Positions 6,501-42,010 of a stretch of DNA of 64,000 bases are shown piece by piece (position 1 is the first letter of the stretch; the number at the start of each line of letters is the position of its first letter). The position numbers were made by a program, and so were the translations under genes. This DNA is from Echinarachnius parma. Taxonomy: Eukaryota; Echinodermata; Echinoidea; Clypeasteroida; Echinarachniidae. Under the pieces are notes generated by a model, which was given only the letters and a program-made list of their open reading frames with translations, made no database searches and was not told where the DNA came from. The DNA lies in NCBI GenBank assembly GCA_037951105.1, contig JBAMJV010010166.1, positions 124,001 to 188,000 of the forward strand, written 5' to 3'.

Positions 6501-9500
6501 TAAACATTTCTAAACAGTTATGGTTTCATGAACTTCAAGGCAGAATTAATTTACAATATGAAATTTAATAGGACCAATTCATTGGCCATAGTTTCTAACT
6601 GATTTTTCTGTTTATGTTTGCAAGGGAAAGGAAAAAAATAAAGCCTGTACTTCTACTCGTCTGACAAATCATTATTTGAAGATTATCCAAAATCTATTTA
6701 TACCACAAATCCAGTATCCACAAACTCAAGCTCATGATGTCCATACCTCATCCTCAGAGTCGCGCACGCTGTGCACCGTCTTGTCCTCCTTGTCCACCAG
6801 TGCCACCAGCAGGTCGTAGATGAACAGGTCCTTGGGCGGCGCATTGTGCGGGTCCACACGGAATGCCGATGTCATGTCTGACGAGAAGGTCAGCACCGCG
6901 CCCTTGTCATTCGCGTTGGCTGGCTTGGCGAAGTCTCGGGTCGACGCGGTGACCTTGTCGTCCTGGTGATGGAACATCAGCTGGATGCGGTCCTCCGAGA
7001 TGAGGAACACGCACTCGGCGATGTCCTCGTTGGCAGGCTTGGTGCGGTTGCGACGGAACTTTTCTACCACTTTCTGGAATGTCACCAATAAGAAAGAAAA
7101 ACACAAATAATCAAGGATTTCTATTTTGAAAGTGGAACATGGAAGAGAATGCTAATGTTGACATGCACTGAGCAATGGTTCTGTTCACAAGATTTGGCGT
7201 GGCATTGGACTTCTCATGCACATTCTAGAAAATCAACAGTATGATGGAAAACAAAATAATATCAATTTCAAAATAGAACAAAAATATCAATGTTTCATAA
7301 TAAGTTCATCCAAACGAAATATTGGCTGCTTCAGCAAAATTATATCTTATTTTGCTAAAGCAACCAATATTTCAATTGGATAAATTTATTAGGAAACCAT
7401 TGATATTTTTGTTCTATATTTTCAAATATTTGTATCTATTTTATGTGTAGGATTCTAAGTATTGTAACTCATTTAAAATTGATATATATATATATATATA
7501 TATATAATAGAGAGAGATGATATACAGTAGAGCTTAATAGATTGGGATAGAAGAAGGAAAGAGGTTGAAAATTAAGTCTCTATTAAAGTTGGAAATAGAA
7601 GTGGACAAAAAGACGGCAGGCATCAGAAATAGGGAAGGTGCAGAATGACTTTCACCCATACAAGGATTGGCCTTGAGTTAGATGAGGTCTGAAATCCAGC
7701 AAGTTCAGGTTTCTTGGGCTGCTTGCTGTTCAAATGAAAAGGAGAGGGAGACAGGGCCAGGGAATGGAAAACAGAAGAGTGTCTGAAGAAAAGAAAAAAG
7801 GAAAATAGATGAAACCAGGCATAATGTGGGAGAGAATCATACCAGGATTGGCCTCGGATTGGAATGGGTCTGGGATCCGGCCGGTTCAAGTTTCTTGGGT
7901 GGCTTGCCAAACACCACGTGCCGGTAGTACAGGAAGTCGTCTCGGTGGTCAAAGTGCTCGGTCATTTGGAGGGCGTTCTCCTCTCGCTTGGTCAGTCCAT
8001 CCACCCGAGCATGATTGTAGAAGATCATGGTGCGCTCACTGTCTGGCCATGGGCTGTAGGTTTGCTCTAAAACAAAAACGTTGATAATACATAATTTGTA
8101 AATGAAATGAGCAAAGAAAAATTGGCTTTGCCGGGAATAGAACCCAAGACCTTTGGATTGCTAGACCAGTGCTCAACCTATCGAGCCACAGAGACTCTTG
8201 TATGGAGGTACTTCCCATGAAATCTTTTTCAATGCTCTTGATATGTTTGAGAATAATAAATATCATAATTAAAATTGGGGGATGACCTGAAGCAGTTAGA
8301 GACAACAAATGCACAAACTGAATGATCTTAAAGTAAATTGAACAGCTAGCACACAAAGAAAATTAGTTTCAATATGAATGACATGAAATTTATAATTTTT
8401 CCAATTGACATATAACAACTCTAGTCTGATATGTCCACTGAGTGAAGTATGAAAGTTTGTTGATATAAAATGAATGCCATATATGGCCAAGTAATGAACC
8501 AAAATGCAAAGTGTTATTAGCTACACAGATGACAAAATCCTCCCCATTTTTGTTCAAATTAGATCATAAATATTTCAATAATGGAGAGCAAATGTGAAAT
8601 CCATAACTATAGTTTCCAATTTCTATCAGTAAGAGGAAAACAGTAAGCCATGAAAGCCTCACCACACGAATTGCAAGTCAGTTTGGTCCGTCCATGCAAA
8701 TTTAATAGATCCCTTAATGCTCTGGCTGATATCCCCCCCCCCCCCCCCCCCCCCTCAAAAAAAAAATTTAACAATTGCACATACCTTTGAGATGCATTGC
8801 CCTGCCCTGGTCATAGTACTCCGTGACGAGGCCGCTGCGGTGGTTGTGGACCCTCAGGTACAGCTTGTCCTGGCGATGCGAGAACCGCTCTTTTACTTGC
8901 ACCAGGTCTTTCACTGGAGAGGTCAAAATTAAAATAATTAACCCGTTCACTACAAGATTATGAACTCCCCATAGCCTTTGTATACATAGCCCACCCGGTT
9001 CCCGTAAGCAATGGGTTATGTCATTAATTAAGTAATAATATGTATGCAGTCTTATAGCAGACTAATTGAATCGTTCGTGATTCAAGAATGATCCTGTAAA
9101 TACCCAGGCTGTGGAAAATGCATGTTTTAAACAGTTTCACTATGGCAATCTACAAGAAAACTTTTTCTTTTGATATTGTTGCGGTTGTAAAATATAAATC
9201 TTTTTATCTTTTTTTACTTTCTACTTAGTAAAATCCAACCCTCACTAGCTGGAACCGTTTGTAGATGAGGGACAATTTGCTTAATAGTGAAGAAATATAT
9301 TCCTGGAATCTCTTTGTCATTATTACGCAGACATATTTTACACACTCATTTTATAATGGTAGATCGATAGTCTTCTGACAAGCTCATCTGGGCAAACTTC
9401 TCTAGCTTGGCTCTCTTGTAGACGAGTGTCTTCTTCCCTAAGAACAATTTAAAGACACTAGCTATCCTAACAAAAATCTCAGGGAAAGTTTGTTAATAGT

Positions 9501-12500
9501 CATATAAAGTAGACAGTTTTTACTCACTCTCTTTATCATGAAAGATGGATAGTCTTGTTACAAGTCCATCTTTCATCAGGTAGTGGGCATACTTCTCTAG
9601 CTTGGCCCTCTTGTAGATGAGGGTCTTCTTTCCCTGCGGACAGCGGGACTGGAACTCCTTGAGGGAAATCTCCAGGGGATTGACCCATGAGGGCGGCATG
9701 TCCATGTGCTTCTCTTCTTCCTTCTCTTCGTCCTAAGATAGGGAAGGAGTGGAAATTAAATCAGTTATACAATTATCATCAATATTTCAAATTATTAAGT
9801 TGAGAAATGAGACCCGATGTGAGATTTGTTTCTTCTCTTGTTTAATCATATAACAACCAACACAAGTAACAGATTTTTGCACTTCAATATATTTCAGTGG
9901 TAGAAATTTCTAAAATTTGTTTGACTTTATTCATTATCAGAGTACATACAACTACAGAGTACACATGTACTCAAAACAAGCTTGCAGACTAGAAGTAAGT
10001 GTAATTAATGATATGTTAACAGTTTTCTTTCCAGATGTAATATGTTTCTCATATTGAGATGAATAACATAGAAAGATGATGATTGGTAACTCACTTCATC
10101 ATCTTCAAAATCTAGTGCATCCTCTTCCATATCTGGAACATCCAGAGTTGGCTTCTCGTTGCTAGGGAACATGAACTCCCATCTCACACAGTCACCTAGG
10201 TCAAACAGAAGGTCCTGAAAGAAATAAACAAACATTGAAATATTGAAAATATTAGAAGTACATGAGAAATAAAACGTTGAACATTGCGCCAATAACAAAA
10301 TAACAACTACTATAAATCAGAGTCATTGTCATTAATTCAAACACTTAGAGAAACTGACAAGAAATATATATAATATTATAAATGAAAAAGAGCAAAGAAA
10401 ATGGGATTTTCTAATCATTAACTTAAAAGATTTTCTAATTCAAAGAAACCGACCAGAAATATATAATGTGATTAAAAATGAGCAAAGAAAATGGGATTCC
10501 AACGGGAATCGAAACCCGAGACCTCCGGATTGCTATCCGGTCTAGCAATCCGAAGGTCTCGGGTTCATCGGTGTTTGTGCATGTTTGACAATTTTCTAGA
10601 TTCGATGTGACCATCAAAATAAATTCTGATGAGATTAAGTCGATAAACTTATGAAATTGGGATGGCTCTATTCTACCAGTAATGAATTTATTGCCTCCTT
10701 ACTTCTATCATTCCCATATAGTTGATGACATATTATAGTTCACTATGGGCAATGGGAATATAAAGACTATATGTACCCTGCATCATACACTGTATTTTTT
10801 TAGAGGTTCAGAGGGTTCAGAGGAACGCATCTTCCTCTCAATCCTCTGTCAAGAAATTATCGTCAGTGAGGGAGCTAGATGAACCAGTCCTAAGGCCAGG
10901 ATACTTTTTCACTCAATATTTTACTATTTTTGTATTACTTTATGTATCACTATAGAAAATGCCACCTCTGTGATTATGAATTTGTACATCGCAACAATTT
11001 AGAGCAGTTTTGCCTGTTGACCCAGTAGTACTTGCTGATCCACAAGAAAGCATCATACTATTGAGAGTCAGGGTTTGCATGATGAAACGTTCTTGGGCAT
11101 CAAGTACATTTTCTGATCCAGATCTTACGTTTTCAAGTTTTTCTTTTTATTGTCATTATCAACTAATAGAAGCTTTTATGAATATATATAGGTACCTTGC
11201 AACCATTGGAGCAGTCTTGCATGTTGACCCAGTAGTTCTGGTTGTTCCAAAGTGACTCTATTCCCAGGAATGCATCGTACTGTGTGGAGTAGCTGTTGCC
11301 AGTCAGGGGCTCGATGAAGAAGTTCTCGGGGACCTCGCGCTTCCCACTCAGGACCAGGACCCAGCAATGGACCCTAAGGCCAAACAAGTCATCTGGCGGC
11401 GCCTTCTCTAGTTCCTAGGATAAGAATTGTGGAAAGTTTTTATGAACTCTCTTGCAGTCTCAGTAAAATGGTGGGAAAGTTTACAACTAGAGCATTATAA
11501 TTGGGGTTCTAAGTGAGGGAGGAGTAGCTATTGCCAGTCAGGGGCTGGTCACTTCTACTGTCAGTCTACTGTCATAGGTGATAGATGAAAATCTTCTTTA
11601 GCAGACCCATTAACACATGATTCAGTATGATGAGTTTTCAAAAACTGATAACTTTTTTCTGGAAACTTTTTTTTCTGAAAATTTTGGTGGTATGGACCTC
11701 AAAACTTTTGTATACAAACAAATATTTACAAGATGGTTCCCTTTAAGGGAGTCAGCATTACTTACTTCTTGTTTCACCACCATCTCTTTCCTCTTCTGCT
11801 CCTCTGCCTTTGCTTGCTCCTCCTCCTTCCTTGCTTCCATCTCCAGGATGAACTTGCTCCTCAGGTCCTTTGGGGGTTTCACTGTGTACTTTCTCATCTC
11901 TTTCTTCTTCTCCTCTGTTGTCACCTGATAAATAGAAGTACAACAATATTAAAGATCTCCAGAATGAACTTGCTTCTTAGGTCCGTTGAGGGTTTGAATG
12001 TGTAATTTCTTATCTCTTTCTACTTTTCCTCCTTCTTCACCTGATAAATAAGAGTATGAAAGTAATCATATGTGACCTTACACCACAAAACGACCGTTAT
12101 GTCGCCATGGTAGTTTGTCTGTAATTAGCTAAAATAGTCAAATAAAAAAAAAAATATGATATTCAAGATTTTGATATTTCCTGAATGAGGGTATCTTAAT
12201 CTAACTTCTGTGAAATTTTCAGCGTCAGAAATCGTGTGTAAATATGATTTTTCTTCAAATAAAAATGATCATATTACAGCACACTGATCTTTAAAGCAGC
12301 TCGTTTTCTCTGTAACTTTAAAATTGTTTCAGCCACATTCCAAATGTTTGGCACTCATTTTGAGAGGGTTTGCTAAGTCCAAATTTGACAAATGATATAC
12401 CATTTTAAAGGTAATGACTTCTACTTTAATGTCATGTGAAAATTAGCACAATCAATTTTCCGACTTATTGGTCGTTTTGTGGTGTAAGGTCACATATGGT

Positions 12501-15474
12501 CATAATAATTTATTGGCTACATCTTTAATGGGATTTACACAATTCTGAGGTCCTTTGGGGTTTGACTGTGTACTTCTCCTCTCTTTCTTCGTCTCTTCCT
12601 ACTTCAACTGTCATCCATCAAGAGAAATGATAAATAAAAGCACACACAATAATAAAGATTGTAAATATTTATTGTCTCCATTTTAGGATGAACCAGCTTC
12701 TGACATCCTTTTGGTTTCCCATATGTAGTTTCCCATCTCTTTAAATGTTAATGGAAGGAAGAAATATTTAGTGACATCAAATGCAACTCATAATTGATTC
12801 CACTTCTTATTTCAAAGATCATTTGTTGTGACAAATTTTGATCTAAACTTCTGTGTGGTATCAATTAAATTGATTGACAATACAATCTTTGGAAAGACAT
12901 GTATTACAATTTTATGACAAAAAGAACTACAAACTTCATCACATTTGATTTAATTCAATTTCATCAGGGGACAGATAAAAGAATTTAAAGCACATAAACT
13001 GAAGAACATTTCTGTTTCCTACAAACCTCATCCTTGGTCTTCATCATGGGGCAAATCTCTCTCGCCTCATCGCACAGCGTTAGCTCCCTTGTTGCATAGC
13101 CACACACTACGTACGCATCGTAACCAGCGCCAAGGAGTAGAGAACAGAGCAGGGTGCTCATCTCAAAGCAGTTTCCCCGCTGTCGCCTGACAACTGTTGT
13201 CGGAGACAACTGTGATTTGGGCTGCCAGAAAAAAAAAGAGATACAAATGTAACCACTACAATTCCAGTCTATACGAACAAGCACACAAGTAAATTGCGAG
13301 TGCTAGAAGTGACATATTTAGTCTGAACATTTTTTTAATTGCTCTCTCAGAATCATTTTCTTTTAAGTCCAAGTACTCCTTCTTGTTTGGTAGATGAGTC
13401 CTTTTTGCCCATGAATCTTCTTGATAGAAATTGATGTTATATGGCTAAACATCCTATTAAAACAAGTTAAAACTACAACACTTGTTTAAGTTAAGTTCCT
13501 ATGATCAACACAATTTTTTTTTTCTGTATTAAAATACAAAGTTTACCAAGATAATAAAAACAAGTTGTGGATCCTTTTGTAATGCCTTTTATTCCCAATA
13601 AATTTGAGACAACAACATCTCACACTGCTTTTGAAGGAGGCAGCTTTTGCTCACTATTAAAAGCTTTTTATTTACCAAGTCTACTGGAGGATCCAGTGGA
13701 TCAAATGTTATGTAGTCTGCAACAAACTCAGCACAGCCATCAAAGTCGTACAGTTCTTGGAAAGGGAGGGTCGTTGGTCTGATCGTCGTACAAACAAACT
13801 TCTCCACGCCACACTCGTTGAGTGGGCAGAGGAGGAGAGGTTTCCGATCTCGGTAGAGATGGACATACTGGCGACGGAAATTTTCGGCATACGCGAGCAC
13901 CAGCTTCTCCTTGCCATCGTTTTCTTTGTATGTTAGAGGATAACTTTCCCTAGGAAGGTCCGAGGGAAATCTGCATGATTGCATGGGATGAGAAAAGAGG
14001 AATAAAAGGAGAATAATAAATTGGAACTATAGAAACATTTGAAACACCACTCAGAGAATATGAACATATATATTCAAATATTAAATTAAATAGTTACTGA
14101 CGTGACATATACAAAAATTAGCAAATATTATTAAGGCAATGTATGTAACACGTAATTAATCAGTGTGCCAGACAAACTACTGTATATATAAAAATCATGA
14201 CAATGGCAATACATCATTATTTTAGTGTTATATTTCAAGTTTTGATCACAAATTTAATAAACGTAACAATAATATACCCCCAAAAGAAAGGGAAACCTTT
14301 AACTTTGTCATGTGCACAGCATTACAAAGTTTTAGGCTTTTCTTCTTCTTCTTCCTTATAATTATATTGTGCAGACTTCATGACTGAACTTGAAGATTAG
14401 TGCACTGCTGTGTATACTATTATTTTGTCCACATATTTTCTGTGACCGTATCATGTATGGTAGGTGTACTACACATCGGCACTGTTTTTAATATCGGCAC
14501 CCCGCGTAATATTTGTTTTTGCGCGTGTTGTAACAAATCGCGCATGAGATGATGCGCGCTACCATTAGAAACTGAACTGGTCGAAATTTTGAGGAGAAAT
14601 AATGCGTAGATCGTCCGCTACGAGTAATACAAGTAAATACGATAAATAATACCAACATCGCACAAGAAATTTTGAGTTGCGTGCATTGTCAATGAGGGTT
14701 GAGGGGGTGCCGGTATTAAAAACACTTCGAACTCGTGAAGCCAAAAAACAACGCGCGCGTTCGAAGGCGATATCTCAAAATATAATTAATATATCGCAAA
14801 TCTGATCATCGCATCGGAATCTGCACTATTTTCTCAATATGTGAGTACAATTTCAAGAAATTTGAATGATTTTTAAGTCTTAAACTGTCGGAAATGTTTT
14901 AGGGTGCCGTTGCGGGGGTCACTCAATCATATGTCGATTATAAATCTATATTAAAATTCAATTAGACTCCGTCAATTAAGACTTAATAATGGAGTTCCAA
15001 AATGACTAAATCAAATCATGACAAATGACCACACACGCACACACACCGACAATCGACAGTCACATAAACATGACCCGAGTATAAACTAATATCTGTGACT
15101 TGTGACCGAGTGCAGTGCCTGTGACACAATATCTTTCTGTGACTGTGGCTCTAATTCTGAACTGCCACACGTACACAACTCGCAAGACTCAAGAATATAT
15201 TTTCCCAATATATAACATGATTATTTTGATGACAATGTGAATTGTGATCAACATCTCCTTGATTATCATACTTTATTCTAAAATCAGTCGAGATTAATAT
15301 TCCTTACGTGTCAATTTTGGGAGGCTCCAAAACAATTTGGTCAAGCTCATCCTTCAAATCCCCAACCGCTTCCAATACATCATCAGGAATTTGTATTGCA
15401 CCATCCTCTGGAAAAGTGTCATCGTTTTCACCGTCATCAACAACAATTGTAGGGCCATCACCCACTCCTTCCAT
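3574..15474 (-). CDS. DRC7: Dynein regulatory complex subunit 7 (DRC7/CCDC135/lobo), 14 exons
   Basis: Subunit of the nexin-dynein regulatory complex, which links doublet microtubules in motile cilia and sperm flagella. Exons in coding order: 15308-15474, 13676-13970, 13027-13221, 11766-11924, 11196-11414, 10095-10214, 9528-9732, 8785-8913, 7843-8066, 6747-7073, 6274-6384, 5253-5447, 4862-5001, 3574-3655. They sum to 2568 nt (855 aa plus stop), close to vertebrate DRC7 (about 870 aa), and every junction keeps frame with GT-AG sites. The start is the ATG at 15474, in an acidic N-terminus (MEGVGDGPTIVVDDGEND). Family signatures are LCPLNECGVEKFVCTT (exon 2), GNCFEMSTLLCSLLLGAGYD (exon 3, about residues 165-190, resembling a transglutaminase-like core) and LDYLAPFLAQIGDPDKL (exon 12). 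The C-terminus is a charged coiled coil ending KTDQRLSEFF. Identity is firm; small boundary errors are possible, the exon 12 acceptor being the least certain. Confidence 0.95.
4476..4825. mobile_element. TTAA MITE family A, right-truncated copy (DRC7 intron 13)
   Basis: Starts TTAAAGGGATCTAGTAACTTT. Shares ATGGCCGAGTAATGAGC, the ATCCAGTGGATAATTTAAC core and GATTTGGACAATGTTAC with its relatives. The right terminus is lost shortly before exon 13. Confidence 0.7.
5100..5250. repeat. Degenerate tetranucleotide tract (TTGG/TCGG/GATC)
   Basis: Runs of TTGGTTGG, GGTCGGTCGG and GATCGATTGAT in DRC7 intron 12, ending just before the exon 12 donor. Confidence 0.7.
5639..5870. mobile_element. TTAA MITE family A, partial copy (DRC7 intron 11)
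   Basis: Begins TTAAAGGGACTTAGTAACAT, the other terminus of family A, in inverse orientation to the copy at 4476. Contains GTTAAATTATCCACTGGACC and stops after AGTGAGTGCAATGAGTTAG. Confidence 0.7.
6030..6262. repeat. GAGGCC-rich repeat in DRC7 intron 11
   Basis: GC-rich segment with repeated CCTCGAG/GAGGCCGAGGCC words, framed by CAACACTGG at about 6028 and 6251. It stands out from the AT-rich intron and is probably a mobile repeat of unknown class. Confidence 0.45.
7272..7421. mobile_element. Palindromic MITE-like element, arms about 70 bp
   Basis: AAATAGAACAAAAATATCAA at the left reappears inverted at the right, and pairing continues with few mismatches to the centre (GCAAAATTATATCTTATTTTGC). 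Lies in DRC7 intron 9. A (TA)n tract follows near 7483-7507. Confidence 0.7.
8101..8225 (-). mobile_element. tRNA-derived SINE, copy 1
   Basis: On the minus strand: an A-box-like TGGCTCGATAGGTTGAGCAC and a B-box region GGGTTCTATTCCCGGCAAAG, followed by the shared tail TTTTCTTTGCTCATTT. Relatives lie at 10380-10575 and 57725-57915. DRC7 intron 8. Confidence 0.65.
8449..8716. mobile_element. Diverged TTAA MITE family A remnant
   Basis: Contains ATGGCCAAGTAATGAACC, AATGCAAAGTG and the terminus AGATCCCTTAA. The left end is not recognisable. A run of about 25 C follows at 8730-8754. Confidence 0.45.
8938..9019. repeat. 80-bp dispersed repeat (TTAACCC...GGGTTA), one of five
   Basis: Reads TTAACCCGTTC, CCCCATAGCCTTTGTA, ATAGCCCAC and ends GTAAGCAATGGGTTA. 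Relatives lie at about 17628-17688, 23726-23803, 47275-47345 and 52632-52708. The inverted ends TTAACCC/GGGTTA suggest a very short MITE. Confidence 0.6.
9360..9438 (-). pseudogene. Decayed partial copy of DRC7 exon 7
   Basis: CTTCTCTAGCTTGGCTCTCT and TGTAGACGAGTGTCTTCTT closely match exon 7 (9595-9632), with an internal deletion. It sits in intron 7, about 90 bp past the exon 7 donor. It lacks the flanks needed for a functional exon. Confidence 0.75.
10380..10575 (-). mobile_element. tRNA-derived SINE, copy 2, rearranged
   Basis: Carries the B-box segment GGTTTCGATTCCCG and the tail TTTTCTTTGCTCATTT, with the tail part duplicated (AGCAAAGAAAATGGGATT occurs twice). The tRNA-like head folds back: CCTCCGGATTGCTA is followed by TAGCAATCCGAAGG, so the normal A box is lost. 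Confidence 0.6.
10991..11045 (-). pseudogene. Decayed partial copy of DRC7 exon 5 (3' part)
   Basis: GAGCAGTTTTGCCTGTTGAC then CCAGTAGTACTTGCTGATCC parallels exon 5 at 11212-11250 (GAGCAGTCTTGCATGTTGAC then CCAGTAGTTCTGGTTGTTCC). It lies about 150 bp past the real donor, without a GT donor in the matching place. Confidence 0.75.
11510..11552 (-). pseudogene. Second fragment related to DRC7 exon 5
   Basis: GGAGTAGCTATTGCCAGTCA followed by GGGGCTGG matches exon 5 at 11288-11314 (GGAGTAGCTGTTGCCAGTCA, GGGGCTCG). It is in intron 4, on the opposite side of exon 5 from the other fragment. Confidence 0.6.
11941..12060 (-). pseudogene. Decayed copy of DRC7 exon 4, copy 1
   Basis: Matches exon 4 and its acceptor: CTCCAGAATGAACTTGCTTC, AGGTCCGTTGAGGGTTT and CACCTGATAAATA. 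On the coding strand it opens VKKEEK and then meets TAG, so it cannot replace exon 4. Confidence 0.75.
12067..12498. mobile_element. MITE with perfect 29-bp TIRs
   Basis: CATATGTGACCTTACACCAC at 12067, continuing to 12095, is exactly inverted at 12470-12498. The 432-bp element is AT-rich and non-coding, in DRC7 intron 3. Confidence 0.85.
12540..12750 (-). pseudogene. Two further decayed copies of DRC7 exon 4
   Basis: 12546-12650 (GAGGTCCTTTGGGGTTTGAC ... ATGATAAATAAAAGCAC) and 12670-12745 (CTCCATTTTAGGATGAACCA ... CCCATCTCTTT) are progressively weaker matches to exon 4. With 11941-12060 this makes three echoes upstream of the real exon, the MITE at 12067-12498 sitting between them. Confidence 0.6.
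14478..14728. mobile_element. MITE with TIRs CACTGTTTTTAATA..CGGCACCCC
   Basis: CACTGTTTTTAATATCGGCA at the left and, inverted, AAGTGTTTTTAATACCGGCA at the right, about 250 bp apart in DRC7 intron 1. Non-coding and comparatively GC-rich. Confidence 0.65.
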
Positions 15475-22123: not shown

Positions 22124-22163
<40 letters not shown>

Positions 22164-25100: not shown

Positions 25101-28100
25101 CTCCGGGCGAGTTTTTCTTCTGTGTACAAAGTGAGTGCAGTGAGTTATTGAATATCACTTTGCATTTTCGCTCATTACTTGGCCATGCAATGTCCATTTG
25201 ACTTGAAATTTTCACACAATACCCTGTGGACATATGAGATAACAGTAATATACATTGCATCAACCATTCATCACTTTTTGCACATGTCAACAAAGTTACT
25301 AGATCCCTTTAATACACCAAACTACTCCTGTATCCTCCCTCACCCTGTTTTCAAACCACCTCTTTGGTCTCCCTCTTTGCCTTCTGCGTGGTTTGTAGCC
25401 GACAAGGACTATCCATCCCCATGAGTGGAGAATAACACAATTACAAGTGAAAAAATTATATATATTTGTTTACTTCTTTAATAGGGAGAGTTAGCAGATC
25501 TACTGATGAGCCTGGGCTGTGTCACTCAAGCATTGGAGATCTTTATCAGACTTCAACTGTGGGAAAAGATGGTTGGATGCTACAGGCTGCTCCAGCATCC
25601 AGAGAAGGTATGCCATCAAATACAGTGTACGAGTACAGTCGAACCTGTCTATAAAGACCGCCCAAGGAAGACAGAAAAGAGGGTCTTTATCAGCAGGTAG
25701 TCTCTATAGACAGGTTCATTTACATGTTAACTTCGTTCAAGGGAGTCAAGCTTAGTGGTCTCTATAAACAGGTTGTCTTTATATACACGTGATTGCTACG
25801 GCAGGCTTGACTGTTTTTATTCATTGAACTAGAAATGATGCATGGATATGTGGATAACTGTCAGAAATATATTAGGGTGCCGATGTGTAGGTCACTCATA
25901 TCAACCATACTACAAGAAAATTTAACTTAACATTAAATTTCAGTTTGTGTGATCCATGGGCGTCGATCCTTACGTAATACCTATTGTTCAGCGGGGGATG
26001 AATGAATAGATCGTCCCCCATGAACAATAGGTATCAAATACAGATCGATGCCCGTGGTGTGATCTGAGAGCAGCTTAAAATGAATGAAAAAGCCTTCATT
26101 TGTTGCATTTAGCATGTAACAAGGCACAAAAAGTAGTACATGAGAATAAAAAAATTTATTTTAATTAATTTTTAAAATGTAAGATTTACATTTCTTGTTT
26201 TCCAGGCAATTCATGTCATCCAAGAGCAGCTAGAAATCAAGGAGAGCGCCCTCATGTGGTGCCTGCTGGGAGATGTGACCAGGGAGAAGAAGTACTACGA
26301 GAAGGCTTGGGAGGTGTCAGGTCAAAGGTCATCGAGAGCCATGAGCTCTCTGGGTCTCCTCTACCTACACGACAAGGAGTTTGACAAGGCCATCGAGTGC
26401 CTTGAGATCTCCGTTGAAAAGAACTTTCTCCAGGTATGTCAGGAAAAAACTAAATGACGTCTCCCCCTCACAAATAAGAACAAACAAATAGGAGACATAT
26501 GGAAGATTTAGTTGAAAAAAAGTGGTTTTCTCTTTTCTCTTTTTTAATGAAAGGACCACTCAGTATGTGCCTTGATATCACACTTTTTATTTTCCCCAGG
26601 TATGTGAAGAAAGAACAAAATGACCCCCAAAACATACAGAAAAACAGACAAACATTAAAAAACATGTGAGAGATTTTGGGTCAAAAGTCCAATTTTTTGT
26701 GTCTCTAGTAGGCCAACAAATATGAAATGCCCCCCCACCCCCCCCAAAAAAAAAAAAAATAATAATAAATAAATAAATTAGAAATACAAAAACAAAAACA
26801 TAACAAAACAGTAAAAGACATGTAGGACAAATTTGGATCACTGGACAACTTCTCTTAATGGGGAGTATGACAAAGCCATCTGGTGCCTTGAGATTTTGCT
26901 TGAAAAGAACTGTATCCAGGTATGCAAAGAAAAGAACAATATGACCCACAAACAAACAAACAGACAGACAAAGACATGTGGGAGATGTCTGGTCAAAAGA
27001 CAACTTTGTCTTTGGTAGTTCCCATAATTGGGTGTATAACATGGCCAGCAAGTGCCTCTGGAATACACCTCTTAAATACTAAGTATTTTCGGTAGGAAAC
27101 TTTTGCTTAGTGTATACCTTCACAGGACCACTACTCTTCCAAACAAGAAACATTTGATGTGATGTACTGCACACTTCCTCTTTGAGTTATCTTTGCTTTT
27201 GAAATCTTTCTCCTACTTTCTATACCTTCTTTTAGTAAACTACAGTCTACACTTCCATGATGCAAGATTATTGACTTTTATCATAAAATGTCAAATAATA
27301 TCATTAATTTTCTTTTTTTTGTCTGTGCAGTATGATGCCTGGTTCAACCTGGGTTATTCAGCATTTGAATCAGAGAAATATGAGATTGCAGCAAAAGCCT
27401 ACAAGCGATGCCTTCAACTAGATTCTGAAGTAAGTAGCAGGGCAATTCCAACTTTTTAAGCAATCATCATCACAATTTGTGTGTATTTATATTTATCCTA
27501 ATTATTAATTTGATCATTATTTGTATTATGATGTATTTCAAATGTTTTTTGTATCCTACATTAAACAACCATTTTTTGTTGCACTGATTGTAAGAAATTT
27601 TGATTACATTGCATGTTTTATTGTTTGTTTTGAAATGTATGAAAATGTGGAAATAAATAATTAGATAAAATGAAATGAATATCATGCAGGTATCTTATAC
27701 TTGGAAAACAACACACCAATCCATCGCTAATCGTCCAACATCTTTAACACTGGTTCCAGCCACTCCTTTTATATATTTAATATATATTTAATAAGACTTC
27801 ATATAATATACATGTATATTCCCTTTAATGCAATTAACAAACCTTTCTACTAAGACCAACTTATTTGACTCATATATATGGTCTTACTAGATATGTTATT
27901 CTTTTTTTTTAATTTTAATTATCTTATATAAAAGTGTGATTTATCTTTCTACAGGATGCCCAATCTTGGAACAACCTAGCAACTGCCAACATAAGGCTGA
28001 ATGACAAGTAAGTGAACCCATACAAAGTAAGACATAAATAGATGTTGAGTACTTCAAGAGCTCAAGATGAAAGCGTAACAGAAATGTTTGTCTCTTTTTC

Positions 28101-31100
28101 ATGTGATTTTTCATGTCCACAATGAGGCGATCAACCGATGCCTTTTTCGTAAGTTGATAACTACCTGTTTATAGCTAAATCTATGATAACAATGTACAAT
28201 TGTGCAAAAGATATGGTGAGGAGGGAATTTTCTCAAATTTTCTCTGATCATCACCCCCATTTTAATATGCTCTTATTTATTTTATTGATTAGACCTAAAG
28301 CTTTCAAGACGTTAAAAGAAGCCATCAAGTGCAACTACAACAACTGGAAGATCTGGGACAACTACCTTGGAGTAAGTATTAGCCTTGAAATTCACACCGG
28401 TTAGCTGGCATAGAGTCATTAAAATAAGCTTACTAATATGATGCTAAAAAATGTATGTTTAATATTAGAAGCTAGATTGAAGTAATGATAATTACTTTGA
28501 AAGTATTAGCCTTGAAAGTAGCTTAGGCTGGCTGGCTTAGGGTCATTACGAATAAACTTCAGGCCAACAAAATGTAACTAATGACGGGAATTTGATGCTG
28601 GCAAAATGTATTGTGAAACTTTTTCGGAAAAATTGAAGTTGTATTTTTCTGTTGTTTTCGTCCATTTTTGGAATGATCCATGTGTAAAGTTTCATGAAAT
28701 ATATTATTTACATTAAATAAAGACACTTTCATACTCATTTGAATAAATTTACATATTTCAATATTTTTCTAAAATCATAACCCAGAAAATAATCAAGATA
28801 TCGAAAGGATAGTTAGCAAGCTTATTCTTCTCACTTTCCTGTACATGTTGATACCAACTTTGTAAAAATTGAACCTTTCATTCCTTTCTAAACCTGATAT
28901 TATAAAATTCCTATTTTTCCATTCATATTGTAGGCCTACATGTCACACACGTGACCACCCCAAAATGTCACACAGTGACCAGACGTTACCACGTAATTAA
29001 ATGCAATAAAAAACAACGGTTTTATATAATTATTATTCATTGCTATGTTTGTACTTACAGATCTATATTTGTCTGGTAATAAGATGAACATCGTAGCTTT
29101 TCATATTTCAAAGGAATTTCCCAAATGAAATTGAGTTATGAAAAAAGCGCTCCGTGCGAAGTCAATAATGACTGTTTTTGCTTGCCCTACTGGGAAACTT
29201 ACTATGTCTAAATTGTCTATTGTCTATAATTTTGAAATCTACACGAACAGTTGTTTGAAAAACGTAGTTATCATACATTATTTGCATCAGCATCTGTATT
29301 TTAACTTTTAAAGGTGCACCTGTAAAGTGTCAGATATTGCCCAAAATTACATTTGAGACTTCAATCCTGTACCAAAATCATTGTATAAAGATATGTCCAA
29401 ATGATGTGTGAAAGTTTCATTGAAAAAGAACACTGCTTTCCTGGTTAAAAAAGCGAAAATATGCATCAGCTTTTACAACGGACGTTTATGAGGTTTGTGA
29501 CCGTTAATTAACGCTTTTGAGCTGAATGATAAATATCGTCATACTAAAGGGGCATTTGAAAAAATCTAACCCTATTTTATTCTTCTCTTACCATAAGCTA
29601 AACAACACGGTAGAAGAGAAACGAGGAAGCTCCAAGTAATTTTCATGGAGTTAGACATTTTACAGGCATCCCTTTAAGTTTTGACACTTTTTTTATATTT
29701 CATGATGTGAATAATTGCAATACTGAGATCAATTTCCAGTCTCCTTCTTAATTGTCATGCTCACTCTTGAATATTTGATGATAAATGATAAGTGATAAAT
29801 GATCATTGGTCTAAGCATTAATCCAAAAATTATGTTTTTAGGTGCAACAGAATTAATATGACCAAGACTTTAGCCGAACGCACTGATAAAAACCATACCA
29901 AGCATTTGAGGAACCAATTCCTGCCAGGTCCCCACTATGCAGAGTTTAGAAAGACAAACGTGGGTAATATGCCTTGTACACAGATACACATGCTGCAGTT
30001 GGGAATAGAATCCTTGACCTTTGCATTACCCCATTCAAGACTCAATTGCAGTATAACATGCATTCTCCATAGAACCCAGTCCAGGAATTTTTGGGACCAG
30101 CCGTGAATGGGTTAATTACAAGACAAAAGCATGAACCAATGTACTACAACACATCCCTTGCTTTTTTGTTCACAGGTTTGCATCGATTTGGGGGAGTTTC
30201 AGGGAGGTGTGCAGGCGTATGACCATCTCTTGGGGCTGAGTCCAAAACATGCCGATGAACTGGTCCTCCAAGTGCTGGTCAGGGCCGTGACAGAAAACCT
30301 AAAGGACAACCAAGGAAACCCAGGTTTGACAACAAGTTTTTTTCTTTATGTGGGACTGTAAGAGTGTGTTTCTACTTATGTACAGTGTGTATTTGTCTAA
30401 GAGTAGGAGAATTAGGTCCAGGCATACCATTATTTCTTTGCGGCCGAGTCCAAAACACACTGACAAACCCTTCCTCCAAGTACTGGTCCCGGCTATGGCA
30501 GAATACATAAAGGACAACAAAGGGAACCCAGCTTTGATGTCGATTTGTCTATATGTGGGACTGTTACAGTGAATTTGTGTGAGAATAGATGATGGTGTGA
30601 TGGTTTACCAACATCTCGTGGGGCCGAGTTCAAAACACACGGATGAAGCAATCCTCCAAGTTCGGATAAGGGCTGTGACATAAAACTTGAAAGATAACAA
30701 ACGAAATCCAGGTTTAATTCTATGTATGTTGGACAATTTGATTGAATTTCGGCTGATGCATATATGTCAGAGATACAACACATTTTTGTTGTTCCCTTTT
30801 AGGGTGCATAATATCTAGAATGTTACATGGTTTAGGCAGTTTTTTTCTGTTTGTATAAATATTGTCATTTAATTGTTCCCATTTGATAGCTGTCTGCAAT
30901 GTGTTTTCATTTAAATTTTCTGCAGTGACAGTTCTGAGACCGAAGATTCTTGATCTGTTCGAGAAGATCACAACCGAAGTGACAAACAATGCCAGTGTGT
31001 GGAGTCTTTATGGCATACTACTCGGAAGCTGTACATCGGAAAACACGATTGAAAACGATAAGGTAATGATCAAAGTTACATTCCTGTAATATGCTTCTTC

Positions 31101-33973
31101 AACGAAGTGGCTGGATGCATTATTTTTGGGGGTTGTCTGAACGTCCGTACATCCATTACGTATGTATGTACATGTACGTCCCGTTGTCGTGATTGGGTTA
31201 TCTCAAGAACCATTGAAGGAATACCATAAAACTTGGTACATGTATGTATCATGAGGAGCCAATGAACTGATTAGATTTGGCTCATGTGGTCATAGGACTC
31301 ATTTTATATGCAAAAGTGGCGTGTGATCAGGTTATGTTGAGATCCAATTGTAATATTAGCCATGTGGTCAATCGTCACCTACTGAAGTCGGAGGGATAAT
31401 TTGTTATTGTGCGCAGTTAAATTGCTCTATTTTTTTAGGCATCGGCCATTTCAGGCAGCATGCAGATTTAAAAGTTACACAATTTGGCCTTGAAAATCTA
31501 TATTATATAAACATGTTACAATGCAGAGATGTTGGTGAAGGTCTATTTTGTGCATGTTTATTTGTAGGCGGGTATCACTGCCTGGTCACCCAGGAACAGA
31601 TGTGAGACCACTTCCATCCAGGACAGAATTGGGCCTTTCGAAACCAGCTCATGATATTAAAGTCAGTAACTGTTAAAATAGCCCCTGAGCCGCCCATGTA
31701 CAGGAATATAATACAGGGTCTCAATACTGTATTTACAATTTATATGTTTGTTTCTTCCAGGCGTTGCAGTGTCTGCAGAGGTCTCACCGTCTGGTCACCC
31801 AGGAACAGAGGTGGCACTCTGAGGTCACCTCAGTCCAGGAGGTCATTCAAGAGACTCGGACATTGGTTGAAGGTTAGTTTAGTTCCAAGAGTTCATTTCA
31901 TTTCTATGCCATAACACGTTGAGGCCTGAGCAAGAACCGTTGTAAGCTTTGCTCTATGGAGAAAGAACAATGAAATGAATGTAAGACCTAGATTCAAACG
32001 TTTCTAAAGGGTTAACAGATACATAGTGATACCTCAACCCTACTGAAAACACTTGTAATATTTGAAAAACACTTGCATTTTTCATAGACCCTAACTGTAC
32101 AGTCATGTATGTAGTATTATCCTAAGCAGGTTGAAGGCGAATGGCAGTTTGTATCTTCGTTTCTTAAAGTAGTCCCGTCATCAAAAGAACACAAAATTGG
32201 AATGTTATACCGACTTTTGTAATCTTCCTGGAGAATCAAAGTATTATAAATGGGTAGTTGACACAACTGGTAGATAGTAGACTGGACTCATTAAAGGACC
32301 TAAAGAATACAACATACTTTGGCACTTATTCTATTGTTGATGACTTGTAAAATAGGTCTGCCGAAAAAAAAATCCATGAAAATAAACACAGTAGTGATTT
32401 AAGACTAATTTTCTGATGCCAAATCTCATTTAGCAGCCAGTTTACGCCCCACCCACATTTAGGGTCCAGAATCGGCAGCGTGATTGACATGTGATTGACA
32501 ATTCATTGGCTTACGTCATGACGCGTCATCTACAGAATTTAGTTCATTAGTCCGTACTTTAGATGACGTCACATTTTGGCGATTTAAAAGGGGCGTTCCC
32601 AGGACAATAAGATATTTACTAATTACCCCAAAATTGATTGATTTCATGAGAAATGACTGCCAAATTCTTTTTCTTCAGGAAAAATTACATATAGAGAGCC
32701 AAATTGTGAAAATTAGGCCATCTAGATGCTATAGGTCCTTTAAGTAAAAAGGGTTCATAACCACCTTTGTAGGCTGAGACATATTTGTTAAATGCTCCAA
32801 TATTGTAATATTTGTACTGATTTCTCTCACAGCTTATGAAAACTGCAGCAAGACCAAGTCTAGTGGTGCACAGGCCATCCAGCTTCTGTCCTCAGCAAAG
32901 CTCATGCTCAAGTCCATCATCTCCAAGATAAAGGTTGGTATACTGGTTATCCTATTCAACTCACACAGTGCAGACTCACACAATTATATTGTGCACCTTC
33001 TCAACTCCCTAGGAAGCATAACATACATTTATTTTCATATTCAGGCAATTTTATTTGTAAGGATTCATACATATCTTTGAGAAGAAAAAAGATCCAGCAT
33101 TATAGATATCAAATTGTCTCATCAATTGGTAAATTATTAATGTGTTTAGAATTGTTTCTGGGTTGATATCATTTTCTTCAAGAGGAAATGTAAAATTGGG
33201 ATTTGGCCAGAGTGTTGTTATGTGACTCCCCAGGATAGAGACTATTGAATCTCTGCTGGTCCTGGGGACCGAGCTTCAAGAGATATTAAATTGGCTCATT
33301 AGTTGGTAAAATATTATTGTGTTATGATTTTTTTCTGGGTTTTCTTCAAGAATGTGTTTAGAATTGTTTTTAGGTTTTCTTCAAGAGGAAAAGTGAAATT
33401 TGGATTTGGCCAGAGTGCTGTTAAGTGGCTCTGGGATGAGTGATTCCCTGGTTAGAGCCGAGTGAAGCTCTGCTGGTCCTGGGGGACCGAGAATCAGCAG
33501 ATATCAAATTGTCTCATTAATTTGGTAAATTATTACGGTGTGAAGAATTTTTTCTTGGTTTCTTCAAGAGGAAAGGTAAAATTGGGATTTGGCCAGAGTG
33601 TTGTTAAGTTATTATTAGACTGTGCAATATTAAGATTTGAATCATTACATCACTATCCTTTATCTCTGTTCATACATTTACAATTTCTTAAATCTTTTGT
33701 TTAATTTAATTTAACACTATATTGCGGTGGCTCCCCATGTTCAGCTGGCAAGAGCCGAGTGAATCTGTGAATCTGTCTGATAGTTAGGCTGTATCAATTA
33801 GTGGTAAATACACTTAACATTTTCTTTCTCTCTCGCTTTTTCGATTTCAGCAAGAGCACTACGACGCTGTGACTCCACCGGCCAGCTGGGCGGAGCTGAG
33901 CGAATCAGTTCAGGAACTTGAGGCAAAACTCCAGCAACTTGTTGACAGGATAGCACAACTAAGAGGAGGGTAG
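16017..33973 (+). CDS. TTC27: Tetratricopeptide repeat protein 27 (TTC27), 21 exons
   Basis: TPR protein conserved from yeast (Emw1) to mammals and thought to act in cytoplasmic protein or complex assembly. Exons: 16017-16164, 17369-17552, 18173-18299, 18581-18715, 19604-19706, 20508-20672, 21075-21208, 21803-21915, 22853-22919, 23603-23716, 24696-24791, 25485-25607, 26206-26433, 27331-27429, 27955-28007, 28293-28371, 30176-30323, 30926-31062, 31761-31872, 32833-32933, 33851-33973. They total 2589 nt (862 aa plus TAG), close to the family's roughly 840 aa, with frame kept at every junction. Signatures are [11 protein letters not shown] (exon 3), [12 protein letters not shown] (exons 6-7) and the TPR block at about residues 525-690 ([50 protein letters not shown]). 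The start lies 542 bp from the DRC7 start, in divergent orientation. Intron 11 has a GC donor. The gene appears intact. Confidence 0.95.
16321..16495. mobile_element. TA-flanked MITE, CAGTCAAACCTGTC family
   Basis: CAGTCAAACCTGTCTTAGCG at the left and inverted CAGTCAAACCTGTCTATAGT at the right, flanked by TA, as for Tc1/mariner-type elements. Interior repeats GTGGCCAC words. TTC27 intron 1. A relative is at 25636-25813. Confidence 0.8.
18811..18980. repeat. 20-bp minisatellite, about 8 copies
   Basis: Unit GAGAATGGGAGTAAGGAAAA repeated almost without change, about 95 bp after the TTC27 exon 4 donor. The homogeneity implies recent expansion. Confidence 0.9.
20030..20395. mobile_element. Tandem-repeat element with GCCCGTAGCCAGG ends
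   Basis: Three units of about 110 bp (GTCTTGTTGAGGACCCCCC..., TGGTCTCGGTCCCATTTTTT..., AATTATGCATCCCCCTAGAA) between GCCCGTAGCCAGGGGGTGTT and inverted GCCCGTAGCCAGGATTTTTC. Poly-C runs of about 23 mark two of the units. TTC27 intron 5. Confidence 0.75.
21932..22340. repeat. GAT-rich minisatellite, about 100-bp unit, 4 copies
   Basis: The core GGTCATGATGGTGGGGTTGG plus CGGTGGCATCCATGATGACG recurs at about 21966, 22064, 22170 and 22268, separated by GATGAT runs of varying length. TTC27 intron 8. Long frames through it encode only His/Met/Ser/Asp runs. Confidence 0.9.
23215..23523. mobile_element. MITE with TIRs of about 54 bp
   Basis: GTGGCATTCACAAAGGAGGT...GGTCTACAT at the left is inverted at the right with about three mismatches. 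TTC27 intron 9. The internal reading frame has no recognisable domain. A fragment (AAACCTCCTTTGTGAA) is at about 286-301. Confidence 0.85.
23834..24373. mobile_element. TTAA-flanked MITE, family C
   Basis: TTAA at 23834-23837 and 24370-24373. Ends TTAAAGGGGTAGTACAGTTT and, inverted, TTAAAGGGGTAGTTCAGTTT. 540 bp, non-coding, TTC27 intron 10. Confidence 0.8.
24792..25484 (+). other. GC-AG intron (TTC27 intron 11)
   Basis: The exon ends TTA GAG and is followed by GCAAGT instead of GT; the acceptor is TTTAATAG. No nearby GT keeps the protein in frame, and the junction reads RWTLE-GELADLL as expected for the family. The rest of the donor (GCAAGT) is the typical GC-donor consensus. The intron hosts a TTAA MITE copy at 24927-25312. 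Confidence 0.75.
24927..25312. mobile_element. TTAA MITE family A, full copy
   Basis: TTAA-flanked. Left end AGGGACTTAGTAACATTGTC, right end inverted AGGGATCTAGTAACTTTGTT. The centre has the hairpin AAGAAAAACTCCGG..GAGTTTTTCTT. Lies in the GC-AG intron. Confidence 0.85.
25636..25813. mobile_element. TA-flanked MITE, CAGTCAAACCTGTC family, copy 2
   Basis: CAGTCGAACCTGTCTATAAA at the left and inverted CAGTCAAGCCTGCC at the right. It begins only 28 bp after the TTC27 exon 12 donor. Confidence 0.65.
25965..26055. mobile_element. Short palindromic repeat
   Basis: GGGCGTCGATCCTTACGTAA..ACCTATTGTTCA at the left pairs with TGAACAATAGGT..ATCGATGCCC at the right. TTC27 intron 12. Confidence 0.55.
26560..26960 (+). 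pseudogene. Two echoes of the 3' part of TTC27 exon 13 and its donor
   Basis: Around 26568-26700 and 26855-27005. The second reads GAGTATGACAAAGCCATCTG then GTGCCTTGAGATT...ATCCAG|GTATGC. It stays open in the exon frame ([19 protein letters not shown]) and keeps a GT donor, but has no evident acceptor in phase. The first keeps mainly the donor side (CCCCAGGTATGTGAAGAAAG). Confidence 0.7.
28372..28575. repeat. Two-copy duplication in TTC27 intron 16
   Basis: GTATTAGCCTTGAAATTC..TAGCTGGCATAGAGTCATTA (from 28375) and GTATTAGCCTTGAAAGTAGC..TGGCTTAGGGTCATTA (from 28502) are diverged copies starting at the exon 16 donor. Confidence 0.6.
29308..29677. mobile_element. TTAA-flanked MITE family B, copy 2
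   Basis: TTAA at 29308-29311 and 29674-29677. Ends AGGTGCACCTGTAAAGTGTC and, inverted, AGGGATGCCTGTAAAATGTC. TTC27 intron 16. Confidence 0.85.
30405..30720 (+). pseudogene. Two decayed copies of TTC27 exon 17
   Basis: 30411-30560 and 30590-30720 each align along most of exon 17. Shared words are AGTCCAAAACACACTGACAA, CTCCAAGTACTGGTC and AAAGGACAACAAAGGGAACC. Copy 1 has frame damage and its donor GT is changed to CT; copy 2 has a TAA after GCTGTGACA. Neither can be a normal alternative exon. Confidence 0.8.
31095..31330 (-). repeat. Diverged copy of the 151-bp satellite-type repeat
   Basis: CAACGAAGTGGCTGGATGCA, ACGTCCCGTTGTCGTGATTG and ATCTCAAGAACCATTGAAGG match, in inverse orientation, the right end of the 51440-52510 array. 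TTC27 intron 18. Confidence 0.65.
31565..31635 (+). pseudogene. Decayed copy of part of TTC27 exon 19
   Basis: CTGGTCACCCAGGAACAGAT then GTGAGACCACTTCCATCCAGGAC matches exon 19 at 31791-31850 (CTGGTCACCCAGGAACAGAG). It lies about 200 bp upstream of the exon and hits TGA straight after the match in the exon frame. Confidence 0.75.
32291..32743. mobile_element. TTAA-flanked MITE, family D
   Basis: TTAA at 32291-32294 and 32740-32743. Ends TTAAAGGACCTAAAGAATAC and, inverted, TTAAAGGACCTATAGCATCT. 453 bp, non-coding, TTC27 intron 19. Confidence 0.8.
33105..33620. repeat. Three-copy tandem duplication in TTC27 intron 20
   Basis: Units of about 175-215 bp contain AAATTGTCTCATCAATTGGT, TTCTTCAAGAGGAAA and GGATTTGGCCAGAGTGTTGT, diverging between copies. 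Confidence 0.75.
33735..33785 (+). pseudogene. Short fragment resembling TTC27 exon 21
   Basis: CAGCTGGCAAGAGCCGAGTGAATC resembles exon 21 at about 33884-33907 (CAGCTGGGCGGAGCTGAGCGAATC). Short, so tentative. It fits the echo pattern elsewhere in this gene. Confidence 0.45.
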
Positions 33974-35280: not shown

Positions 35281-35793
35281 TTAGCTCATCCGGCCCGAAG
35301 GGCATGATGAGCTTATGCCATGCCGTGGCGTCCGGCGTCCGTCCGTCCTTCCGTCCGTCCGTCCGTCCTTCCGTCCGTCTGTCCGTCCAGTTTTCAAAAT
35401 GCTTCTTCTTCGTTATTTTTCAACCGATTTTGATTCTGATTGTTTCATAAGATAGGGCTAGGAGGGGGATTTAAAACTTCTACACAGAATCGTGAAATTC
35501 ATTATCTATGGTAATTTATGCAAATTTATTCGAAATCACAAAAAATGCTTCTTCTCCTTCATTTCTCGACCGATATTGATTTGGTTTGCTTTATCTGGTA
35601 GAGCTAACTTTGGTACACTAAACTTCTACACAGAATTTTGAAATTTGTCTCCATTCATTAATTATGGTAATTTTTTATTTTTTTATTTTTTTATTTTTTA
35701 ATTTTTTAATTGTTTTTATTTATTTTTTATTTTTATTTTTTTGTTTTTGTTTTTGTTTTTTTTTTGAATTATTTTTTTATTTATTTTTTTTAA

Positions 35794-35831
<38 letters not shown>

Positions 35832-37939: not shown

Positions 37940-38000
37940 ATAATAAGGCCAGGGGAAGGGGGGGGGGAGGCCATCATGGCCCCCCCCCCCCCCTCCGCGA
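37940..38000. repeat. G-run and C-run pair
   Basis: GGGGAAGGGGGGGGGG and CCCCCCCCCCCCCC about 20 bp apart form a potential hairpin, probably remains of a mobile-repeat end. Confidence 0.4.
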
Positions 38001-38463: not shown

Positions 38464-38851
38464 TTAAAAGGGACTTAGTAACATTGTCCAAATCCTCAAA
38501 ATAAAGTTTTAATTCTAGCGGTTCCCTCATACCTTGTTGTAGTCGGATTACCAATAAAATCATGGGACAGGTTTCGGTTTTTCAAATTTCCCTTTCGTTA
38601 CAAAGATATGTACGATCGAAGTATTCAGATAAGAAAAACTCCGGTGGAGTTTTTCTTACTGTGTACAAAGTGAGTGCAGTGAGTTAGTGACTATCACTTT
38701 GCATTTTCGCTCATTACTTGGCCATGCAATGTCCATTTGACTTGAAATTTTCACACAATACCCTGTGGACATATGAGATAACAACAATATACATTGCATC
38801 AACCATTCATCACTTTTTGCACATGTCAACAAAGTTACTAGATCCCTTTAA
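38464..38851. mobile_element. TTAA MITE family A, full copy
   Basis: TTAA at both ends; left AAGGGACTTAGTAACATTGT, right inverted AGGGATCTAGTAACTTTGTT. Central hairpin AGAAAAACTCCGGTGGAGTTTTTCT. Nearly colinear with the copy at 24927. Confidence 0.85.
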
Positions 38852-39054
38852 CTAAACAAAAGTTTTTTAGCGCTGTAACTTTCAGCCGTTCTTGTCTGTT
38901 TTTTGAAAAAACAGAGATGTTAAATTTCAATTCCACATGGAGCATACAGGATGATACAGCCAACTAGCTGCCATTACCCCATTAAAGACTGATGGATTTG
39001 GGTATAACATGCATTCTACTTAGATCTTAACCAGAGTATTTTCGGGGCAGTCCT

Positions 39055-39213
39055 GTAGCCCAGTTCATAAAACTGTTGCAATTGTTGTAAGTGTCCAATT
39101 ATTGTAACTACCTTGACAACAGCTGTAATACTCCATGCTGATTGGCTGTTGACCAGTTAGTTACAATAATTAGACACTTACAACAATTACAAGTGTTTTA
39201 TGAAATGGGCTAC
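39055..39213. mobile_element. MITE with TIRs of about 54 bp
   Basis: GTAGCCCAGTTCATAAAACT... at the left is inverted at the right with about five mismatches, leaving a short centre. 159 bp in all. Confidence 0.8.
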
Positions 39214-39216
39214 TGG

Positions 39217-39383
39217 TGGGGGTGTTGCATAAAGAGTTGCGATCAATCCCAAAGTTACGATTGATCCCAAGTGAGAAAATGCGCCTAAATGTGCAAATCT
39301 GATTAGCTCAAGTGCACATAATTCCGACTTGCGATTAATCCAAAATTTGCGATGGATCGCAACTCTTTATGCAATACTCCCCT
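39217..39383. mobile_element. MITE with TTGCATAAAGAGTTGCGATC ends
   Basis: The 24-bp left end is inverted at the right with one mismatch. It abuts the preceding MITE within a few bases and is an unrelated family. Confidence 0.8.
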
Positions 39384-39389
39384 GAATAG

Positions 39390-41400: not shown

Positions 41401-42010
41401 GTCGGGCACTACATTGGACTAGTAAAATGTCAGGAATTTAGAATTAAACTTCCATGTGTGTTTAAACCCGACATATATATACACTTTAATATCCTTCGCA
41501 AATTGCCTGAAAATTTCATAGGTCATTTCAATGTCCAAATATGGTAGCCCTGCTAATTTGTTGAAATAGTCATGTTCTGAACTTCTCCATTCCCCTCGAC
41601 TATGTATCCATTCTTTGGATCTTCCTTTCAACATGCTTGATATTGTGACTTGTTCTGAGGTCAGTCTGGCTAAATTTTTGGAATTTAGAATCAATAATGG
41701 AATTTCTCCAATGACCTGACAACATCCATTCATGATTTCTCCCTTGCGACTTGCTCAAAATTGGCACAAGTCACATCGAGCTTATTCTAAGTCAAGCAAT
41801 TTGTTGGTATAGTTCAGACTTATTTTGACTCCACAATTTTTGTAGAATTTAGTGTCAAAAATTCTATTGCCCTAACAACGTCTGTACATGTGACTGGTAC
41901 GTCCTTGTGACTTGCTTGTAATTATCACAAGAATCATCAGGCTTCCTCTTAATCAACCAGACGAGCAACAAGTCAGGTTAGTTTGACTTCTTAAACTCAA
42001 CAAAATGTTT
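41400..42010 (-). pseudogene. Decayed tandem copies of the death-domain gene's last exon end
   Basis: About 41680-41835 and 41850-41995 repeat the arrangement at 42010-42170: TTAGAATTTAGTGTCAA, TCTCCATTTCCCTGACAACA, GCGACTTGCTTGAAATCACC, CAAGTCACATCAGGCTTGTTCT. The echoes cover the end of the death domain, the stop region and the adjacent 3' UTR, with many substitutions. A weaker copy may begin near 41410. Confidence 0.75.

Follow-up and report, generated by a model that had tools for sequence, protein, structure and literature searches.

The window, by which we mean the whole 64,000-nucleotide stretch analysed here, consists of intron-rich DNA that, judged from its gene content, is probably animal. 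The plus strand carries a series of TPR exons that fit TTC27, to which we take them to belong; they were mapped with a guide sequence. On the minus strand lie DRC7 (match to PDB 9fqr at 2.9e-126) and an exon with a Death domain (Pfam E value of 1.2e-4, just at the cut-off), which was read directly. The gene names given in the original prediction (DRC7, TTC27, and a death-domain gene) therefore hold. Mapping by protein guides and splice-site scoring yielded 13 exons of DRC7 and 17 of TTC27, some exons at the 5′ ends being left out. Exon numbers are those of the original prediction, so that m3, m4, m6, and m8 of our mapping are DRC7 exons 4, 5, 7, and 9 and m10, m14, and m16 are TTC27 exons 13, 17, and 19. 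Minus-strand open frames at 54267-55275 are possibly part of another gene, and a minisatellite with a 20-bp unit (8.6 copies, 97% alike) lies between two TTC27 exons at 18809-18979.

Partial copies of exon sequence, here called echoes, lie beside exons of all three genes. Since the conserved protein is encoded by the exons, these were counted as the parents. The features are as follows.

7843..8066, minus strand: DRC7 exon 9, parent
7657..7726, minus strand: DRC7 exon 9 echo (77%, offset 181), the sole window copy without stop or frameshift
9528..9732, minus strand: DRC7 exon 7, parent
9314..9486, minus strand: DRC7 exon 7 echo including donor site and intron, 79%
11196..11414, minus strand: DRC7 exon 5, parent
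10945..11101, minus strand: DRC7 exon 5 echo, 81%, period ~204, with frameshifts and a stop
11517..11548, minus strand: DRC7 exon 5, short fragment (28/32)
11730..11924, minus strand: DRC7 exon 4, parent
11955..12068, minus strand: DRC7 exon 4 echo carrying the acceptor site (83% across 86 exon bp, period 115), with a single in-frame stop
12067..12498, no strand assigned: MITE-like element with ~40-bp terminal inverted repeats, inside the exon 4 echo array
12497..12659, minus strand: DRC7 exon 4, second echo, past the MITE-like insert, 75%
12668..12742, minus strand: DRC7 exon 4, third echo, 77%
26206..26433, plus strand: TTC27 exon 13, parent
26045..26146, plus strand: TTC27 exon 13 echo, 5′ part
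26567..26624, plus strand: TTC27 exon 13 echo, 3′ end and donor
26813..26945, plus strand: TTC27 exon 13 echo, 3′ half and donor, 72%
30176..30323, plus strand: TTC27 exon 17, parent
30416..30568, plus strand: TTC27 exon 17, first echo, extending to the 3′ exon edge, 77%
30573..30730, plus strand: TTC27 exon 17, second echo, extending to the 3′ exon edge, 72%
31761..31872, plus strand: TTC27 exon 19, parent
31539..31623, plus strand: TTC27 exon 19 echo, offset ~205-209
33848..33973, plus strand: likely last TTC27 exon, with a weak 55-bp echo from 34154
42024..42388, minus strand: last exon of the death-domain gene, parent
41838..42007, minus strand: echo of the death-domain exon end and following sequence, 72%
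41670..41836, minus strand: second echo of the death-domain exon end, 78%
41555..41643, minus strand: third echo of the death-domain exon end, weaker
28357..28559, plus strand: noncoding two-unit array, period 129
33091..33613, plus strand: noncoding array of ~2.7 units, period 197
35396..35670, plus strand: noncoding two-unit array, period 146

Echoes in the window and their decay

Each of the 31 exons was aligned, in direct and inverted orientation, to its own flanks, the search being limited to 1 kb on either side. Controls for each exon were 200 dinucleotide shuffles against the same flanks and the exon itself against the flanks of 21 to 30 distant exons. A direct-strand copy that beat all 200 shuffles and all distant-exon flanks was found for 8 of the 31 exons, namely, DRC7 exons 4, 5, 7, and 9, TTC27 exons 13, 17, and 19, and the last exon of the death-domain gene. 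All of these parents had been listed in the original prediction except DRC7 exon 9, which is an additional one (copy at 7657-7726); TTC27 exon 21, named as probable, has only a weak 55-bp copy, with a score of 112 versus 95 for the best of 200 shuffles. The first DRC7 exon, tested alongside the likely last TTC27 exon, had no echo. No inverted echo beat all controls for any of the 31 window exons, the lowest inverted count being 4 of 200 shuffles. Shuffles, other-exon flanks, and inverted controls together exclude chance similarity, and the TPR repeats of TTC27 are rejected as its source, since DRC7, kinesin, and DEAD exons behave alike and copies extend into introns. At a score of at least 140, echoes cover 1023 of 4817 exonic bases (285, or 5.9% of 4817, at 80% identity or more). 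Tandem Repeats Finder (TRF) picked up just one of the eight window exon arrays (DRC7 exon 4), and a 701-bp query found no other haplotype of the window.

When the window was compared with itself (score of at least 140), direct pairs reached 14 per 100 bp of offset at 100 to 200 bp and 0.03 to 0.22 per 100 bp beyond 2 kb, and inverted pairs below 300 bp were absent. The same comparison recovered arrays at 28357-28559 and 33091-33613, in keeping with the noncoding duplications that had been noticed in the same introns. Several echoes belong to arrays of three or more units; arrays of about three units lie at TTC27 exon 17 (period ~191), at the death-domain exon (165), and at 33091-33613 (197). 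For single gapped echoes, such as that of DRC7 exon 9, tandem duplication and nearby insertion look alike. The MITE-like insert splits the DRC7 exon 4 array (115), and its insertion is therefore younger than the array. Elsewhere in the window, identical 135-bp stretches at 2272-2406 and 2875-3009, 469 bp apart, are much younger than the exon echoes.

Window copies are partial, end anywhere in the exon, and are 72 to 85% identical to it in the alignments, and several extend past the exon edge into the intron. They had been said often to include a splice site. This is true of about half, with 6 of the 15 that were aligned extending to a splice edge and 2 more ending one base short, the edges carried being the acceptor (exon 4) and the donor edge (exons 7, 13, and 17). 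None of the 15 spans both exon edges. An in-frame stop or frameshift is present in 14 of the 15, and the intact copy comprises 64 bases. Retrocopies (processed pseudogenes) were rejected as a source, given that the copies of several exons, including 4, 7, 13, and 17, continue into intron sequence.

A copy that drifts freely beside a constrained exon should differ from it about twice as often at codon position 3, where changes of both lineages count, as at position 2, where those of the copy prevail, and this pattern is seen in the window, with differences of 0.248, 0.167, and 0.318 at positions 1, 2, and 3 (456 codons). For 18 echoes of kinesin exons, a set with five echo-selected members and two that belong to a single allele pair, the corresponding values were 0.166, 0.163, and 0.259; 14 of these copies are broken, and 4 have neither stop nor frameshift. 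Intact kinesin copies are those of L039 (95%), L024 (91%), L042 (90%), and L029. Kinesin echoes at 90 to 95% also refute the idea, drawn from the window only, that young exon duplications are absent. The codon-position pattern fits a neutral copy beside a constrained exon and supports the suggestion that selection keeps one copy. Short tandem duplications that include exons were the core of that suggestion, and the echoes agree with it in being direct only, often regularly spaced, and mostly broken.

Extent and unit length across the assembly

From the 1.2-Gb assembly that contains the window, 19 further stretches (179,905 bases) were chosen by contig number. Local direct arrays were found in 16 of the 19; with the window included, there were 62 clusters in 17 of 20 sources. 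Among 1306 random 200-bp tiles, at a score of at least 150, 24.0% had a direct copy within 1 kb and 13.2% an inverted one, the latter being put down to putative inverted-repeat elements, while 1.5% matched another locus's flanks. At the same score, the rate for exons was 17 of 52 (versus the tiles, Fisher P = 0.19), and after the addition of 14 exons tested later it was 24 of 66 (P = 0.028), 29 of these 66 being kinesin exons. This modest excess, which the constrained parent could explain, leads us to reject an exon-specific mechanism and largely supports the view that exons mainly reveal a general process.

Searching with a kinesin profile yielded 134 matches to exons, among which five pairs, on five contigs, repeat one profile segment on the same strand within 51 to 246 bp; the only other doubled segment is a pair 6.9 kb apart on opposite strands. 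Since the profile matched five such copies, echoes can be called as extra exons, and this is a warning for annotation. Of 29 kinesin exons picked without regard to echoes, 19 had a direct echo that beat all 100 shuffles, that is, 14 of 21 taken in list order with most partner contigs skipped and 5 of 8 from two exon-dense stretches; inverted echoes were found for none of the 29 (100 shuffles). The rate leaves out the echo-selected L022 and L024 to L027 as well as L023 (the partner contig of L022, without echo), counts as echoes two very short matches, L030 (29 bp) and L054 (27 bp), and becomes 18 of 28 when one of L031 and L032, which look like alleles, is taken away. For exons of DEAD helicases, one of which (L051) spans an intron in our set, 4 of 6 had a direct echo, one of them marginal, and none had an inverted one; among 45 DEAD profile matches inspected by eye, no two close together covered the greater part of one profile segment twice. 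Local direct copies thus also occur in random stretches, for random tiles, and for kinesin and DEAD exons, and the density that had been put forward as remarkable for a single region is no peculiarity of it.

Self-BLAST was blind below about 100 bp: whichever of three divergences was used, it missed all 25 planted units with a length of at most 80 bp. For this reason, a diagonal scan in which all offsets are equal was adopted, and a hard minimum unit length of 100 bp was dismissed as an artefact of self-BLAST. The scan left 66 arrays after removal of those known to match other loci; multicopy arrays were removable only if visible to BLAST, so that this screening covered the longer units. Unit lengths were 20 to 99 bp in 20 arrays, 100 to 139 bp in 4, 140 to 219 bp in 29, 220 to 299 bp in 7, and longer in 6, with a peak at 180 to 199 bp and an excess at 140 to 219 bp (P = 0.0009 versus a uniform distribution on 20 to 299 bp). 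The peak coincides with nucleosome-plus-linker length and stands beside a short-unit class; with 20 of 66 arrays at 20 to 99 bp, nucleosome length is a peak and not a rule. Best-echo offsets near the peak were 159, 162, 181, 188, 190, 196, 198, 201, 201, and 205 for kinesin exons and 186 and 194 for DEAD exons.

Unit differences between paired contigs

The assembly contains many homologous contig pairs (C10331/C4220, C5986/C5710, C4080/C10004, C12482/C1423, and C2734/C4115), which look like uncollapsed haplotypes of what would be a very heterozygous animal. Of eight pairs, three differ clearly in their units, one is alike (C4080 and C10004), one has no BLAST array in either member, and three are too diverged or unclear. 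C5986 (L042) carries a kinesin exon and three partial copies as head-to-tail direct units with constant spacing, the exon starts being 212, 202, and 201 bp apart. C5710, 98.7% identical to it over 1.9 kb, has 403 extra bases, equal to two units. The extra sequence comprises a 273-bp intron block, with identities of 99.3% to its neighbour and 99.6% to C5986, and a 130-bp exon part, for which identity is 96% to the next echo and 91.5% to the exon. These values make the gain young, yet it is no plain copy of the exon unit.

C12482 and C1423, ~89% alike over 777 bp, differ in their units of ~170 bp, in which lie the 3′ half of a kinesin exon and its donor. A third difference is of another kind. 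At oriented positions 1147-1303, C10331 (L022) has a 157-bp copy of part of a kinesin exon, 89 to 91% like the exon, where C4220 (L023) has ~190 bp of other sequence; the two contigs are 94% alike downstream and 80 to 90% alike upstream. Simple tandem duplication does not explain this copy.

Origin of the arrays

The explanation we favour, with a probability of about 0.75, is continual head-to-tail duplication in place, mostly of nucleosome length and of any sequence, followed by gains of whole units and neutral decay. Segments, most often of 140 to 219 bp, would be duplicated head to tail in place anywhere in the genome, and every array would start in this way. In the first duplication, breaks or nicks staggered by about one nucleosome may be filled in and joined by end joining; the unit length and the end joining of overhang breaks described in PMC5730883 both suggest such an initiating lesion. 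That process, like the one proposed here, gives direct duplication at the break site, but the induced overhangs reported there are 46 nt, whereas units here are mostly 140 to 219 bp. Later units could be gained by unequal exchange or slippage. One exon does look constrained while the other copies drift and gain stops and frameshifts, and exons would stand out because the constrained parent keeps old copies recognisable. Points against this explanation are exon offsets off the peak, namely, 246, 262, 290, 318, 403, 484, 510, 625, and 858 for kinesin exons, 435 and 539 for DEAD exons, and 115. Also against it are the arrays with units of 20 to 99 bp, the inverted local copies of random tiles, the exon part of the extra C5710 sequence, and the C10331 copy, which it does not explain.

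A broader claim, that an ongoing process tuned to nucleosome length makes small satellite-like arrays from arbitrary unique DNA, affecting about one-quarter of tiles and at least one-third of exons, we put forward only tentatively and consider rather doubtful. If true, it would mean that the birth stage of satellite DNA has been caught in the act, with exons as dated landmarks.

Templated break repair that captures nearby DNA by synthesis-dependent strand annealing, as in primates, is the strongest competitor to head-to-tail duplication, though we think it unlikely. Proximal duplications of up to 619 bp that include exons are known there (PMC2671141), and the C10331 copy, which faces other sequence in C4220 and has the matching stretch of the exon ~110 bp away, is what such capture could leave. 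However, inverted echoes were found for 0 of 60 window and kinesin exons and for none of the DEAD exons, whereas PMC2671141 describes a duplicated exon in the opposite orientation, and units here are near-constantly spaced. The primate duplications resemble those here in their local source, in lengths up to hundreds of base pairs, and in the possible inclusion of exons and splice sites; pairs within 50 bp were removed in that study to exclude tandem duplications, and its minimum estimate is ~3 to 18 events per million years per lineage.

It is very improbable that the copies are functional, mutually exclusive exons under selection, a known outcome of tandem exon duplication (PMC9013439), although stops and frameshifts are both lacking in 4 of the 18 echoes of kinesin exons and in 1 of the 15 in the window. 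Breakage of 14 copies in each of these sets, the lack of any window copy with both exon edges, and the similar differences at kinesin positions 1 and 2 (0.166 and 0.163), as for a neutral copy, all speak against it. As in tandem exon duplication, exon sequence here is copied within its own gene, next to the parent and on the same strand; unlike mutually exclusive exons, the copies are mostly partial, cut anywhere, broken, and neutral looking. In PMC9013439, copies with at least 80% identity cover 0.08% of exonic bases in fly, 0.06% in worm, and ~2% in human, to be set beside our 5.9% with the proviso that its aligner differed and its targets were wider.

Equally poor are the prospects of reading the arrays as internal repeats of mobile elements of Helentron or MITE type with captured exon pieces. 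Such elements are known in the Pacific oyster (PMC7492417), and 24 of the 62 arrays have matches elsewhere in the 244-kb sample, including 10 whose units measure 125 to 175 bp. Against this, exon arrays adjoin their own parent, the seven window exon loci listed (that of exon 19 is unlisted) match nothing else in the 244-kb sample, and 33104-33400 and 30100-30800 occur only at home in the 1.2 Gb searched with very common words skipped. An assembly artefact in which haplotypes were joined in tandem can practically be set aside: homologous contig pairs are many, and such an artefact might in theory account for the 403 bp by which C5710 differs, but ~65 to 85% identity with different decay is incompatible with stitched allelic reads.

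Head-to-tail duplication over short distances is a known kind of mutation; its density and unit length here are unusual. No report in the literature searched describes one genome with at least one-third of exons hit at nucleosome-length units. If the proposed process is real, satellite-like arrays could be watched here as they form from unique DNA, and one could ask why monomers are nucleosome length; the process would also supply raw material for alternative exons, as well as decoy splice sites. In the Pacific oyster, according to PMC7492417, dispersed short arrays most often have 2 or 3 units, and monomers of 160 to 180 bp dominate; 14,591 arrays of at least two 100- to 500-bp units were found in 559 Mb (~1 per 38 kb), and 4,689 of them could not be clustered. 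Here, 20 arrays with a period of 100 to 500 bp were found in 244 kb, 15 having at least two units. Arrays in both genomes are short, most often with 2 or 3 units, and spread genome-wide, but the abundant oyster clusters described lie inside Helentron-type elements with shared monomers, whereas the exon-side arrays tested here consist of unique local sequence. Multicopy repeats are also present: the window at 51349-52377 has satellite-like units of ~142 to 151 bp (91% TRF matches) that occur in five other sources, unlike the exon arrays, and the 156-bp arrays at 4830-6565 of L009 and 6840-9266 of L013 each match one other source.
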